Part shown: positions 3,726 through 8,618 of the stretch, in pieces
How positions within the stretch are numbered: the stretch's first letter is position 1
Layout of the letters: each line of letters opens with the position of its first letter
From: an uncultured Coriobacteriaceae bacterium
GTDB lineage: Bacteria > Actinomycetota > Coriobacteriia > Coriobacteriales > Coriobacteriaceae
Direction of reading: 5' to 3'
Assembly: GCA_949287085.1 (NCBI GenBank)
Contig: CASEER010000006.1
Location: 62,001 to 126,000 of the forward strand
Length of the DNA stretch: 64,000 nucleotides
The notes under the pieces: generated by a model
Database searches by the model: none
The model's input: the letters and a program-made list of their open reading frames with translations, nothing else
Told to the model about the DNA's origin: nothing
Translations under genes and position numbers: made by a program

Positions 3726-3759
3726 ATCTAAGTCTCAACATGTTAGGTCTTGCTGAGAG

Positions 3760-3791
3760 CCGCCTGCCTTGGGGAAACCGAAGGCAGGCGG
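3760..3791 (+). promoter_or_regulatory. Strong hairpin in the htpG 5' leader
   Basis: CCGCCTGCCTT (3760-3770) pairs perfectly with AAGGCAGGCGG (3781-3791) around a 10-nt loop. No T-run follows, so it is not a simple terminator. It sits about 100 nt before the start codon and could stabilise the mRNA or act in temperature control; both are inference. Confidence 0.55.
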
Positions 3792-3892
3792 TGTTGCGCG
3801 TCGGGATACTCCGGCGAGCGGCACCGCGCCGGGACGTTCCCGCGGGCGGCATACCTTGGCAGACGCACGCAAAGAGGAAAGGAACGCTGCAC

Positions 3893-5926
3893 ATGCGCAA
3901 GTTCAAAACAGAGAGCAAAAAACTCCTCGACCTCATGATTAACTCGATTTACACCAATAAAGAGATTTTTTTGCGCGAGCTTATCTCCAACGCCTCGGAC
4001 GCGGTGGACAAGCTCAACTTCAAGAGCCTCACGGACGATTCGCTGCAGATAAACCCCGATGACCTGGCCATTCGCGTAGCGTTTGACCGCGATGCGCGCA
4101 CCATTACCGTTTCTGATAACGGTATTGGCATGACCGCCGAGGAGCTCGAAAAGAACCTCGGCACCATTGCGCATTCTGGCAGCCAGGAGTTTAAGGCTGA
4201 GAACGCCGACAGCCAGGGCGACGCGGTGGACATCATCGGCCAGTTTGGCGTGGGCTTTTACTCCGCGTTCATGGTGGCCAAGAAGGTGCAGGTTGTGAGC
4301 CGTGCGTACGGTGAGGACGAGGCGCACGTGTGGGAGTCCGACGGCCTTGAGGGCTACACCATCGAGCCGGGCGAGCGCGCGGATCACGGCACCGATGTCA
4401 TCCTGACGCTCCGCGACAACGAGCCGGGCAAGGACGGCGAGTCGGGGGAGGATTACGACCGCTACCTCAGCGAATGGACGCTTAAGGACCTCATCAAGCG
4501 CTACAGCAACTACGTGCGCTACCCGATCAAGATGATGGTCACCAAGAGTCGCCAGAAGCCCAAGCCCGAGGATGCCGGCGACGACTACAAGCCGGAGTAC
4601 GAGGACTATCAGGAGCTCGAGACCATCAACTCCATGACGCCGATTTGGAAGAAGCGCGCTTCAGAGGTTGAGCAGAGCGATTACAACGAGTTCTACAAGA
4701 GCACGTTCCACGACTATGAGGACCCGGCGCGCACGATTTCCTTCCATGCCGAGGGCACGCTTGAGTACGATGCCCTGCTGTTTGTGCCCGGCCGCGCACC
4801 GTTTGACCTCTACAGCAAGGACTACGAGAAGGGTCTTGCGCTCTACAGCTCCAACGTCATGATCATGGAGAAGTGCGCCGATCTGCTGCCGGATTACTAC
4901 AACTTTGTGCGCGGCGTGGTTGATTCTGAGGATATCTCGCTCAACATCAGCCGCGAGACGCTGCAGCACGACCGTCAGCTGCACGCCATTGCGCGCCGCA
5001 TTGAGAAGAAGATTACCGACGACCTCTGCGATATGCGCGATAACGACCGCGAGGCGTACGAGAAGTTCTTTGAGAACTTTGGCCGTGGCCTTAAGTTTGG
5101 CATCTACAACACCTATGGCGCCAAGGCGGACGAGCTTGCCGACCTGCTGCTGTTCTGGAGCGCCAAGAACCAGAAGATGATCACGCTGCGCGAGTACGCC
5201 GAGGCCATGCCCGCGGGGCAGAAGGCCATCTACTACGCGGCGGGCGACGACCGCGACCGCCTGTCCAAGATGCCCGTGGTGACGGGCGTGCTGACACGCG
5301 GCTACGACGTGCTGCTGTGCACGCAGGACGTGGACGAGTTCACTTTCCAGGCCATGCGTGAGTACGTGGCCAAGAACATGCCCAAGGTCTACGAGGACGA
5401 CGCAGCGCGCGAGGCAGCCGAGAAGGCGCAGGCCGACGGTGCCGAGCCTGAGACCGAGGACCGTCACCTGGAGCTCAAGAACGTGGCGACGGGCGACCTT
5501 GACCTGGCGAGCGAGGACGAGAAGAAGGAGGCCGAGGAGGCCACCAAGGAGCACAGCGGCCTCTTTGATGCCATGAAGGAGGCGCTCGGCGACAAGGTCG
5601 AGAAGGTTGCCGTGTCTTCGCGTTTGGTAGGCGAGGGCGAGGCTCCCGCATGCATTTCTACCGAGGGCCCGCTGTCGCTCGAGATGGAGAAGGTGCTCAA
5701 GCGCGGTCCCGAAGGCGAGGCCGAGGGTCTGCCCAAGACGCAGCGCGTGCTGGAGCTCAACGCCAAGCACCCCGTGTTTGCCAAGCTCACGGCGGCACAG
5801 GACGCAGGCGATACCGAGAAGATCAAGCTGTATGCAGGCCTGCTCTACGACCAGGCGCTGCTCGTTGAGGGCATCTTGCCGGAGGACCCGGTGGCGTTCT
5901 CCCAGAGCGTCTGCGAGCTTATGTAA
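3893..5926 (+). CDS. htpG: Molecular chaperone HtpG (Hsp90)
   Basis: ATP-driven cytosolic Hsp90 chaperone, 677 aa. The N-terminal GHKL ATPase shows ELISNASDA (Glu29, Asn33), DNGIGMT and GQFGVGFYSAF; the middle domain carries SRETLQHDRQL near residue 350. The length exceeds the usual 610-640 aa because of an acidic, lysine-rich insert around residues 500-560. The start at 3893 is chosen because MRKFKTESKKLLDLMINS matches the family N-terminus and AGAGGAAAGGAA lies just upstream; the longer frame from 3740 runs through the leader hairpin. It stands alone with its own probable promoter and long structured leader. Confidence 0.97.
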   Translation: MRKFKTESKKLLDLMINSIYTNKEIFLRELISNASDAVDKLNFKSLTDDSLQINPDDLAIRVAFDRDARTITVSDNGIGMTAEELEKNLGTIAHSGSQEFKAENADSQGDAVDIIGQFGVGFYSAFMVAKKVQVVSRAYGEDEAHVWESDGLEGYTIEPGERADHGTDVILTLRDNEPGKDGESGEDYDRYLSEWTLKDLIKRYSNYVRYPIKMMVTKSRQKPKPEDAGDDYKPEYEDYQELETINSMTPIWKKRASEVEQSDYNEFYKSTFHDYEDPARTISFHAEGTLEYDALLFVPGRAPFDLYSKDYEKGLALYSSNVMIMEKCADLLPDYYNFVRGVVDSEDISLNISRETLQHDRQLHAIARRIEKKITDDLCDMRDNDREAYEKFFENFGRGLKFGIYNTYGAKADELADLLLFWSAKNQKMITLREYAEAMPAGQKAIYYAAGDDRDRLSKMPVVTGVLTRGYDVLLCTQDVDEFTFQAMREYVAKNMPKVYEDDAAREAAEKAQADGAEPETEDRHLELKNVATGDLDLASEDEKKEAEEATKEHSGLFDAMKEALGDKVEKVAVSSRLVGEGEAPACISTEGPLSLEMEKVLKRGPEGEAEGLPKTQRVLELNAKHPVFAKLTAAQDAGDTEKIKLYAGLLYDQALLVEGILPEDPVAFSQSVCELM

Positions 5927-6324: not shown

Positions 6325-7170
6325 CTATCGCTTGGGGAGGGGATGCTCGCGCACGACCTTAATGACGCGGTCCATGGTTTCGTCGATTTTGTTGCGCTTG
6401 AGCTCGCATTCCCAGATCGTGATCGGCGTCCAGCCGAGCTCTTTAAGGTCGGCAATCGCCCGGGCGTCGCGGTCCACATTACGGCGGAATTTGGCCTCCC
6501 AAAACTCGGTGTTGCGCTTGGGCGTGGATGGGTTGCAGTGCGGGCAGCGGTGCCAAAAGCATCCGTTTACAAAGATGGCAACCTTGCGGCCGGGGAACGC
6601 GATGTCGGGCCGGCCTGGCGCCTTTTTCCATTGTAGCCGGTAGCCAGTGAGCCCTGCCGCGCGCAGGCGCTGGCGTACCAGCAGCTCGGGCTTGGTGTCC
6701 TGGCGCTTGTTGCCTTGCATGGAGTGGCGGCTGTCGTGGCGCCGCTTGGCAAGTGCATGCAGCTCCTCGTGGCTCTTGGTGCTGGCGAGCGTGTTGACGA
6801 GCTCTACATCTGCGGGCATCCAGGTAAGATTGGCGAGCGAGCGGCGCTCGACCCAACGGATTTGGAGCTGGCGGTCGCTCTGTTGGGGCTCGCCCTTCTC
6901 GATGCGGCAGAGGAAGCACTCCATGGAGAGGTGGAAGTCGGGGTAATCGTATTCAACGGTATAGATGTCGCACAGATCGATGACGGTTACCTGGAGCTCC
7001 TCGGCCAGTTCGCGCCGGCAGGCGTCCTCGGCGGATTCGCCGCGCTCAACCTTGCCGCCGGGAAACTCCCATAGGCCCTTCATATTGCCGTAGCCGCGCT
7101 GCACGGCGAGCACGCGGTTGCTCTCCTCGCCATCGTGGATAATTCCCGCTGCTACACGTACTGTTTTCAT
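6325..7170 (-). CDS. Nudix hydrolase fused to a Vsr-type DNA mismatch endonuclease
   Basis: A two-domain DNA-repair-like protein (281 aa). Residues 1-130 are a MutT-type Nudix hydrolase with a near-complete Nudix box: Gly39, Glu45, Arg53-Glu54, Glu57-Glu58, with Gln in place of the final Gly. Residues 148-265 match very-short-patch repair endonuclease Vsr: QDTKPE, PGRPDIAF with the catalytic Asp, FVNGCFWHRC, FWEAKFRRNVDRD and GWTPITIWECEL. Vsr nicks 5' of T in T:G mismatches created by deamination of 5-methylcytosine; MutT-like enzymes clean damaged nucleotides, though this domain's substrate is unknown. The start at 7170 fits the Nudix N-terminus. No cytosine methyltransferase is seen in the window, which is unusual for Vsr. 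Confidence 0.9.
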   Translation of the reverse strand: MKTVRVAAGIIHDGEESNRVLAVQRGYGNMKGLWEFPGGKVERGESAEDACRRELAEELQVTVIDLCDIYTVEYDYPDFHLSMECFLCRIEKGEPQQSDRQLQIRWVERRSLANLTWMPADVELVNTLASTKSHEELHALAKRRHDSRHSMQGNKRQDTKPELLVRQRLRAAGLTGYRLQWKKAPGRPDIAFPGRKVAIFVNGCFWHRCPHCNPSTPKRNTEFWEAKFRRNVDRDARAIADLKELGWTPITIWECELKRNKIDETMDRVIKVVREHPLPKR

Positions 7171-7500
7171 ACCTTGCGTTCTCCCAGCTTTGCCGCGCTT
7201 TCCACCGTATTGTAGATGATGGGGGCGGCTTCGTAGGGCGTTGCGTTTTTGGTGTGCCAGCGGCTTCGCAGAACGCTGCGCTTTGGCGTGCCGGCGGTTT
7301 GATAGGGCACTACTCCAGGCGACGCAGCGCTTTTGGGATGTTCCCCATGCACAATTGTGCACGAGCGGCCTCCCCGCGGCGTGCTCATGGGCCCTTAAGC
7401 ATTCCTTCAGCCTACCTTACAAAACCGAAAGCCCGGCGTAAGACAAATCGATGGCATCCCAGGAGCCGTCCTGCGAGGATAAGGTCAGGAGGTGGTCGTG
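7171..7500. other. Intergenic region with degenerate repeats and a 14-bp palindrome
   Basis: No gene is seen. Imperfect repeats of about 34 bp (around 7220-7320, built on GTGTGCCAGCGG / GCGTGCCGGCGG) precede a perfect palindrome TGCACAATTGTGCA at 7348-7361. The palindrome could be an operator for either flanking gene. Confidence 0.5.
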
Positions 7501-7695: not shown

Positions 7696-7796
7696 CAGCC
7701 TGGTGAAGCAAGGTTTCCAACACGGCGGGGCGCCGGTGCTGGGCATTGTTGCTCCGCTCTTGCCCCATACTAAGAGCCAAAACGAAAGGAATTGCT

Positions 7797-8618
7797 ATGT
7801 CCGTTCTCACCCCGCGCGCGGCGCACTTTGCCACTGACGCCGCCGCAACGAGCACGCCCGTGCTCGACGTGCAGCACATCGAGAAAGTCTACGGCAGCCG
7901 CAGCAACGTAACCCACGCGCTGCGCGACGTGTCGTTTACCGTCAATAAGGGCGACTTTGTGGGCATTATGGGCGCGTCGGGTTCGGGCAAGTCGACGCTC
8001 CTTAACTGTGTATCCACCATCGACAGGGTTACGAGCGGTAGCGTGCTCATCAACGGGCAGGACGTTACACGCCTTAAGAGCCAGCAGCTCACCAAGTTTC
8101 GTCGCGAGCAGCTGGGCTTTATCTTCCAAGACTCCAACCTGCTCGACACGCTTACCGCGCGCGAGAACGTGGCTCTGCCGCTCACCATCTGCCGTGTGCC
8201 GGCCAAAGAGGTTTTGACGCGCGTGACCGAGGTCGCAGGACGCCTGGGCATTCGCGAGGCGCTCGACAAGTACCCCTACCAAATGTCGGGTGGTCAGCAG
8301 CAGCGCGTAGCGGCGGCCCGTGCCCTCGTTACGAACCCGGCCATCGTTATGGCGGACGAGCCCACCGGCGCGCTCGATTCCAAGAACGCGCGGCTGCTGC
8401 TCGAGAGCTTTGAGACCATAAACCGCAGCTACCAGGCCACGGTGCTCATGGTCACGCACGACAGCTTTGCCGCGAGCTACACCAAGCGCGTGCTCTTTAT
8501 TCGCGATGGGCGCATCTTTACCGAACTGCGCCGCGGCGGGTCGAGCCGCCAGGAATTCTTCGACCGCATTATGGAAGTCGTTGCCATGATGGGCGGTGAG
8601 GGCTCCGATGCTTTGTAA
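7797..8618 (+). CDS. ABC transporter ATP-binding protein, BceA/SalX type
   Basis: ATPase subunit (273 aa) of an FtsX-type exporter or sensor transporter of the bacitracin/antimicrobial-peptide family. Walker A GASGSGKST near residue 60, Q-loop FQDSN, signature SGGQQQR and Walker [13 protein letters not shown] are intact. The start at 7797 follows CGAAAGGA; the first 20 residues before the ABC domain are not conserved. Its 3' end overlaps the permease gene by 11 nt, so the two are translationally coupled. Bce transporters usually pair with a dedicated histidine kinase and response regulator, which are not present beside this pair. Confidence 0.93.
   Translation: MSVLTPRAAHFATDAAATSTPVLDVQHIEKVYGSRSNVTHALRDVSFTVNKGDFVGIMGASGSGKSTLLNCVSTIDRVTSGSVLINGQDVTRLKSQQLTKFRREQLGFIFQDSNLLDTLTARENVALPLTICRVPAKEVLTRVTEVAGRLGIREALDKYPYQMSGGQQQRVAAARALVTNPAIVMADEPTGALDSKNARLLLESFETINRSYQATVLMVTHDSFAASYTKRVLFIRDGRIFTELRRGGSSRQEFFDRIMEVVAMMGGEGSDAL

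Follow-up and report, generated by a model that had tools for sequence, protein, structure and literature searches.

Nearly all Coriobacteriaceae genomes that we surveyed carry one gene in which a MutT-like Nudix hydrolase is joined to a Vsr mismatch endonuclease, and this gene is retained under selection even where no cytosine methylase is present. We analyzed it in a 64,000-nucleotide stretch of DNA (the window) from an uncultured member of the family. Our best reading, which we place just short of an even chance, is that the product is a bifunctional mutation-avoidance enzyme, the Vsr half of which would act on T:G mismatches without a dedicated Dcm partner and would partly stand in for mismatch repair. 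The component parts of this architecture are known and the architecture itself is new: the literature searched yielded no description of a Nudix-Vsr fusion, and no account of Vsr as mismatch repair in the Coriobacteriia.

Domains and catalytic residues of the fusion protein

The gene is a single unbroken frame starting at an ATG at position 7170 (Table 1), and most relatives of its product align from the same first residue. The 281-residue Nudix-Vsr protein proposed in the first-pass annotation was borne out by matches to PF00293 (NUDIX; residues 5-122, E 5e-19), PF03852 (Vsr; residues 148-208, E 5e-20, 71.5 bits against a cut-off of 27) and TIGR00632 (vsr; residues 146-256, 110.4 bits, above the NCBIfam cut-off of 97.85). 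An AlphaFold2 model, run on the fusion protein with 38 window and related sequences, had a mean pLDDT of 93.2 and a pTM of 0.59; it predicts two well-folded domains that are loosely placed relative to each other. In the model the linker helix spans residues 134-154, and the linker is of variable length among relatives, being often ~50-60 and up to ~110 amino acids longer than in the window.

Table 1. Coordinates of the fusion gene, its parts and its conserved neighbors in the window
Feature	Position	Strand	Basis
Nudix-Vsr fusion gene, complete, 281 aa + stop	6325..7170	-	Translation; Pfam/NCBIfam matches
GGGAGA, probable ribosome-binding site, Shine-Dalgarno-like	7180..7185	-	Read from sequence; 9 nt before the ATG at 7170
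Nudix half, residues 1-131, MutT/NudG type	6778..7170	-	PF00293; TIGR00586 below cut-off; AlphaFold2
Nudix box G39-V61, Gln60 replacing the last Gly	6988..7056	-	Translation; alignment of relatives
Short helical linker, residues 132-146	6733..6777	-	AlphaFold2 model; lengths in relatives
Vsr half, residues 147-275, mismatch endonuclease fold	6346..6732	-	TIGR00632; 1cw0
Vsr motif FVNGCFWH, residues 200-207	6550..6573	-	Alignment: His207 = E. coli His69, Asn202 replaces His64
ABC-transporter ATPase, conserved flanking gene, outside the claimed function	7746..8618	+	Synteny; PF00005
htpG (Hsp90), second conserved flanking gene	3740..5926	+	Synteny

The Vsr half belongs to the family of E. coli Vsr by curated score (TIGR00632) and matches the sequence of that enzyme (PDB 1cw0) with an E of 2.6e-21. 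E. coli residues E25, D51, H69 and D97 correspond to E162, D189, H207 and D235 of the fusion, all four of which are invariant in 15 fused proteins; Cys66, 73 and 117 are also retained, as are the intercalating residues Trp68 and Trp86. Two residues differ: Thr63 is replaced by Val, and His64 by Asn202. The latter change is no argument for a dead enzyme, because functional Vsr proteins of Neisseria have Asp in place of this His, as does Caulobacter VsrA (PMC12907096). The fusion further departs from E. coli Vsr in having a Nudix domain attached, in lying outside any dcm operon, and in being kept without any C5-methylase in a host that lacks MutL.

The Nudix half was modeled with a pLDDT mostly between 90 and 97. 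Its Nudix box, G39-KVERG-E45-SAEDACR-R53-E-L-A-E-E-L-Q60-V, follows the consensus GX5EX7REUXEEXGU, catalytic Glu residues included, at all positions except the last Gly, and R53, E54, E57 and E58 are invariant across the 15 fused proteins. The Gln at that last position had been read correctly in the first-pass annotation; since the same position varies freely among relatives (Q, D, N, K, G, R, A, H or C), it is an ordinary trait of the subfamily and nothing special. Both halves thus keep their catalytic residues in the alignments, from which the two activities are predicted.

As for the substrate, the Nudix half shares 33% identity and the catalytic Glu residues with E. coli MutT, a standalone 8-oxo-dGTPase, yet it scores 87.2 bits with the MutT equivalog model TIGR00586 (cut-off 97.9), and MutT Asn119, which binds 8-oxo-G, aligns with Asp121, the residue found at this position in NudG (Asp118). 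With the NudG equivalog model NF007834 it scores 60.2 bits, against a cut-off of 156. Neither curated cut-off being reached, naming the domain MutT or NudG by model was rejected; a tree that included both E. coli enzymes as references had very long branches and favors neither name. Nudix/MutT proteins are its structural neighbors, and M. smegmatis MutT2 in complex with 5-methyl-dCTP (5zro) is among the closest. The fold is shared with the 5-methyl-dCTP/dCTP hydrolases NudG (Orf135) of E. coli and MutT2, which differ from the fusion in being standalone enzymes; hydrolysis of such a substrate by the fusion is a prediction.

Retention of the fusion in the family and its relation to C5-methylases

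The family survey comprised 57 Coriobacteriaceae genomes, namely that of the window and 56 others, each 95% complete or better. Fifty-three of them carry the fusion, a degree of conservation that is more than chance, and in most of the sufficiently long loci the gene lies between the ABC-transporter ATPase and htpG genes or adjoins one of the two. Outside one genus, g2, it is common to 53 of 54 genomes. The three g2 genomes have a separate Vsr without Nudix, and the remaining genome (G032), the only one in the family that lacks Vsr, keeps a Nudix domain at the place of the fusion. In g2 the unfused vsr gene (L145, 2288-3094, + strand) is found at another place, beside groEL and ychF-like genes and with no Nudix gene nearby. 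The G032 locus (L146, 3315-5066, - strand) holds a 583-amino-acid open frame in which a Gfo/Idh/MocA oxidoreductase is joined to the Nudix domain; a start Met stands before the latter, and the frame may represent two overlapping genes.

A profile search with PF00145 detected no C5-methylase in the host assembly, in agreement with the first-pass annotation. By itself this proves little, because the assembly is 76% complete, and three genomes of the same genus, of 99% completeness, all carry PF00145. The point is settled by other members of the family: 19 of the 57 genomes have no PF00145, and 16 such genomes, 95-99% complete and including one on a single contig (G009), carry the fusion. In species pairs of which both genomes lack a C5-methylase, the Vsr half had a dN/dS of 0.035-0.082 and the Nudix half one of 0.054-0.21; both halves are under strong purifying selection in these pairs. 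Vsr is retained equally in family genomes with (38) and without (19) a methylase, and its one loss occurred in a methylase-bearing genome. A wider mutation-avoidance role had been suggested in the first-pass annotation, and such a role, not tied to a partner methylase, is supported: the gene is conserved, it is selected in methylase-free genomes, and it belongs to an order without MutL or NucS.

The same data bear on the main alternative, a serious one to which we assign a clearly lower probability than to the mutation-avoidance reading. According to it, a broad-specificity chromosomal Vsr mends deaminated 5-methylcytosine from whichever C5-methylase is present; since restriction-system C5-methylases are gained and lost by horizontal transfer, methylase-free genomes would have had one recently or would acquire one, and the Nudix half would destroy 5-methyl-dCTP recycled from methylated DNA. 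The likeness of the Nudix half to MutT2 with its bound 5-methyl-dCTP and the NudG-type Asp are in line with this. Order-wide, moreover, Vsr and PF00145 co-occur (110/49/9/28; OR 7, p 1e-6), which also counts against our own best reading. In the Bacteroidales, unfused Vsr and Nudix genes lie side by side, in either order, and are found as accessory genes of M.EcoRII-R.EcoRII operons (L014, 1362-6038; L064, 2457-5778) and, in one locus (L080), beside McrBC.

Precedents from other bacteria fall on both sides. The Vsr proteins of Neisseria serve several methylases, and in Caulobacter VsrA, whose His64 is replaced as in the fusion, is not linked to the gene of its solitary methylase, ScmA (PMC12907096). 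Caulobacter differs in that ScmA and MutSL are present and VsrA is unfused (PMC12907096), whereas many genomes of the Collinsella type lack any C5-methylase. There, loss of ScmA makes VsrA costly (PMC12907096), so that a Vsr deprived of its methylase would be expected to be lost. Instead, Vsr is kept equally in the family whether or not a methylase is present, and strong selection persists where both genomes of a pair are methylase-free. The two readings overlap, as a Vsr of relaxed specificity could do both.

A different kind of methylase protein was also encountered in the course of the survey. In L090 (67-2661, + strand) and L091 (52-2754, + strand), proteins of ~860-900 amino acids combine a MutH/Sau3AI-like nuclease with the greater part of a C5-methylase; in several genomes the last methylase motifs follow downstream in another frame.

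Mismatch repair and GC content in the Coriobacteriales

MutL was found in none of 197 Coriobacteriales genomes by a profile search in which the controls behaved as expected. The matches to the MutL model within the family were rejected, as they lie far below the cut-off and cover only portions within positions 1-131 of the 555-position model; they are probably other GHKL ATPases. The order-wide search for NucS gave fragmentary matches of ~38-70 residues only, rejected as short, partial and in other frames. MutL and NucS were thus searched for here, and for MutS we rely on a published survey, in which all analyzed Coriobacteriia lacked both NucS and MutS-MutL (PMC5290159). NucS/EndoMS, an endonuclease that takes the place of MutSL in Actinomycetota, offers a parallel to the role proposed for Vsr; it differs in belonging to an unrelated family and in being absent from the Coriobacteriia (PMC5290159).

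Of the 197 genomes, 160 have Vsr, in nearly every case a single copy; that the other 37 live without it is a further point against our best reading. Vsr-less Coriobacteriales are mostly small and AT-rich. In a regression on stretches of 111 genomes, in which kinship was handled by genus and family terms only, Vsr was associated with a GC content higher by 9.0 points (p 2e-10), and by 8.8 points (p 6e-7) when fitted per genus with family terms; overall the difference was 9-10 points. It persisted with genome size in the model, under which the C5-methylase had no effect (p 0.57), and among genomes of up to 2.2 Mb the median GC was 0.626 with Vsr and 0.506 without it (p 8e-7). The Vsr-less G032 has a GC of 0.48-0.49, compared to 0.55-0.71 for fused loci in its relatives. 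Five genera include members with and without Vsr, and four of these genera differ in the expected direction, one of the four by 2 points and another with overlapping ranges; GC-rich genomes without Vsr also exist (G097, 0.66; G102, 0.63).

The relation between GC and Vsr is a correlation from partial sequence, and it fits a general bias of T-to-C repair. That GC follows Vsr and not the methylase argues against a Vsr kept for methylated cytosine. Host-restricted, reduced genomes may alternatively have lost both GC and repair genes. A tetranucleotide signature of Vsr (loss of CTAG and TTGG, gain of CCAG) was sought by comparing genomes with and without Vsr, and nothing convincing remained after correction for GC, which again does not favor the mutation-avoidance reading.

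Origin of the fusion and its proposed role

In a tree of Vsr proteins all 38 family fusions form one clade (99/95), and a fusion from Prevotella (L011) falls among Bacteroidales Vsr proteins. These two placements show that the fusion arose twice, once in the Coriobacteriaceae and separately in Prevotella. Separate genes do occur among the relatives, in g2 and in sister families, a pattern taken in the first-pass annotation as the mark of a recent accident. With 53 of 54 genomes fused outside g2 and a second origin elsewhere, the fusion is old and vertically inherited in the family, neither recent nor accidental.

It is conceivable, and in our judgment improbable, that an independent MutT-like Nudix enzyme and a Vsr of ordinary repair were joined for shared expression only. 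The low pTM beside the high pLDDT suggests independent domains, the linker varies widely, and either half can be found alone, Vsr in g2 and Nudix in G032. Two independent fusions and the repeated Bacteroidales adjacency in both orders nevertheless point to a functional link between the halves, for which the repeated pairing is the strongest evidence. An antiphage role, raised in the first-pass annotation and here envisaged as hydrolysis of phage-modified dNTPs with nicking of phage DNA, is very improbable: the PADLOC model PDC-S07 matches the Nudix half (2.5e-40) and unfused relatives can adjoin DUF3427 helicases and restriction genes, yet PDC-S07 is merely a candidate defence family (PMC11514479), and in the Coriobacteriaceae the gene is near-universal, vertically inherited and set in a fixed housekeeping context outside any defence island. 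In Lachnospiraceae and other Clostridia, the unfused PDC-S07-type relatives are in some cases found near PLD-helicase-DUF3427 proteins (L051, 214-2817; L067, 252-3194).

In the mutation-avoidance reading, the vertically inherited gene would act at two levels. The Nudix half would hydrolyze modified dNTPs, of the 5-methyl-dCTP/dCTP type or 8-oxo-dGTP, and so bar them from incorporation into DNA; the Vsr half would nick beside the T of a T:G mismatch, leading to short-patch T-to-C repair. Such repair in the Coriobacteriaceae would be independent of a dedicated Dcm partner, would be directed at T:G mismatches of the deamination type in a relaxed sequence context, and would partly replace the missing MutSL and NucS pathways; joining the two activities in one chain may itself be of benefit. 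A more general proposal, which we regard as possible though rather doubtful, is that throughout the Coriobacteriia a Vsr-type nuclease serves as a general T:G repair enzyme independent of cytosine methylation, that in the Coriobacteriaceae it has been fused to a nucleotide-pool sanitizer, and that its T-to-C repair contributes to the high GC content of these genomes.

Mutation avoidance in bacteria that lack both MutSL and NucS is an open question; the survey that names the Coriobacteriia as lacking both systems leaves room for further pathways (PMC5290159), and the fusion provides one concrete candidate gene. If the proposed role is true, Vsr would no longer be confined to very-short-patch repair tied to a methylase, and the GC content of a major group of gut bacteria could be explained in terms of repair.
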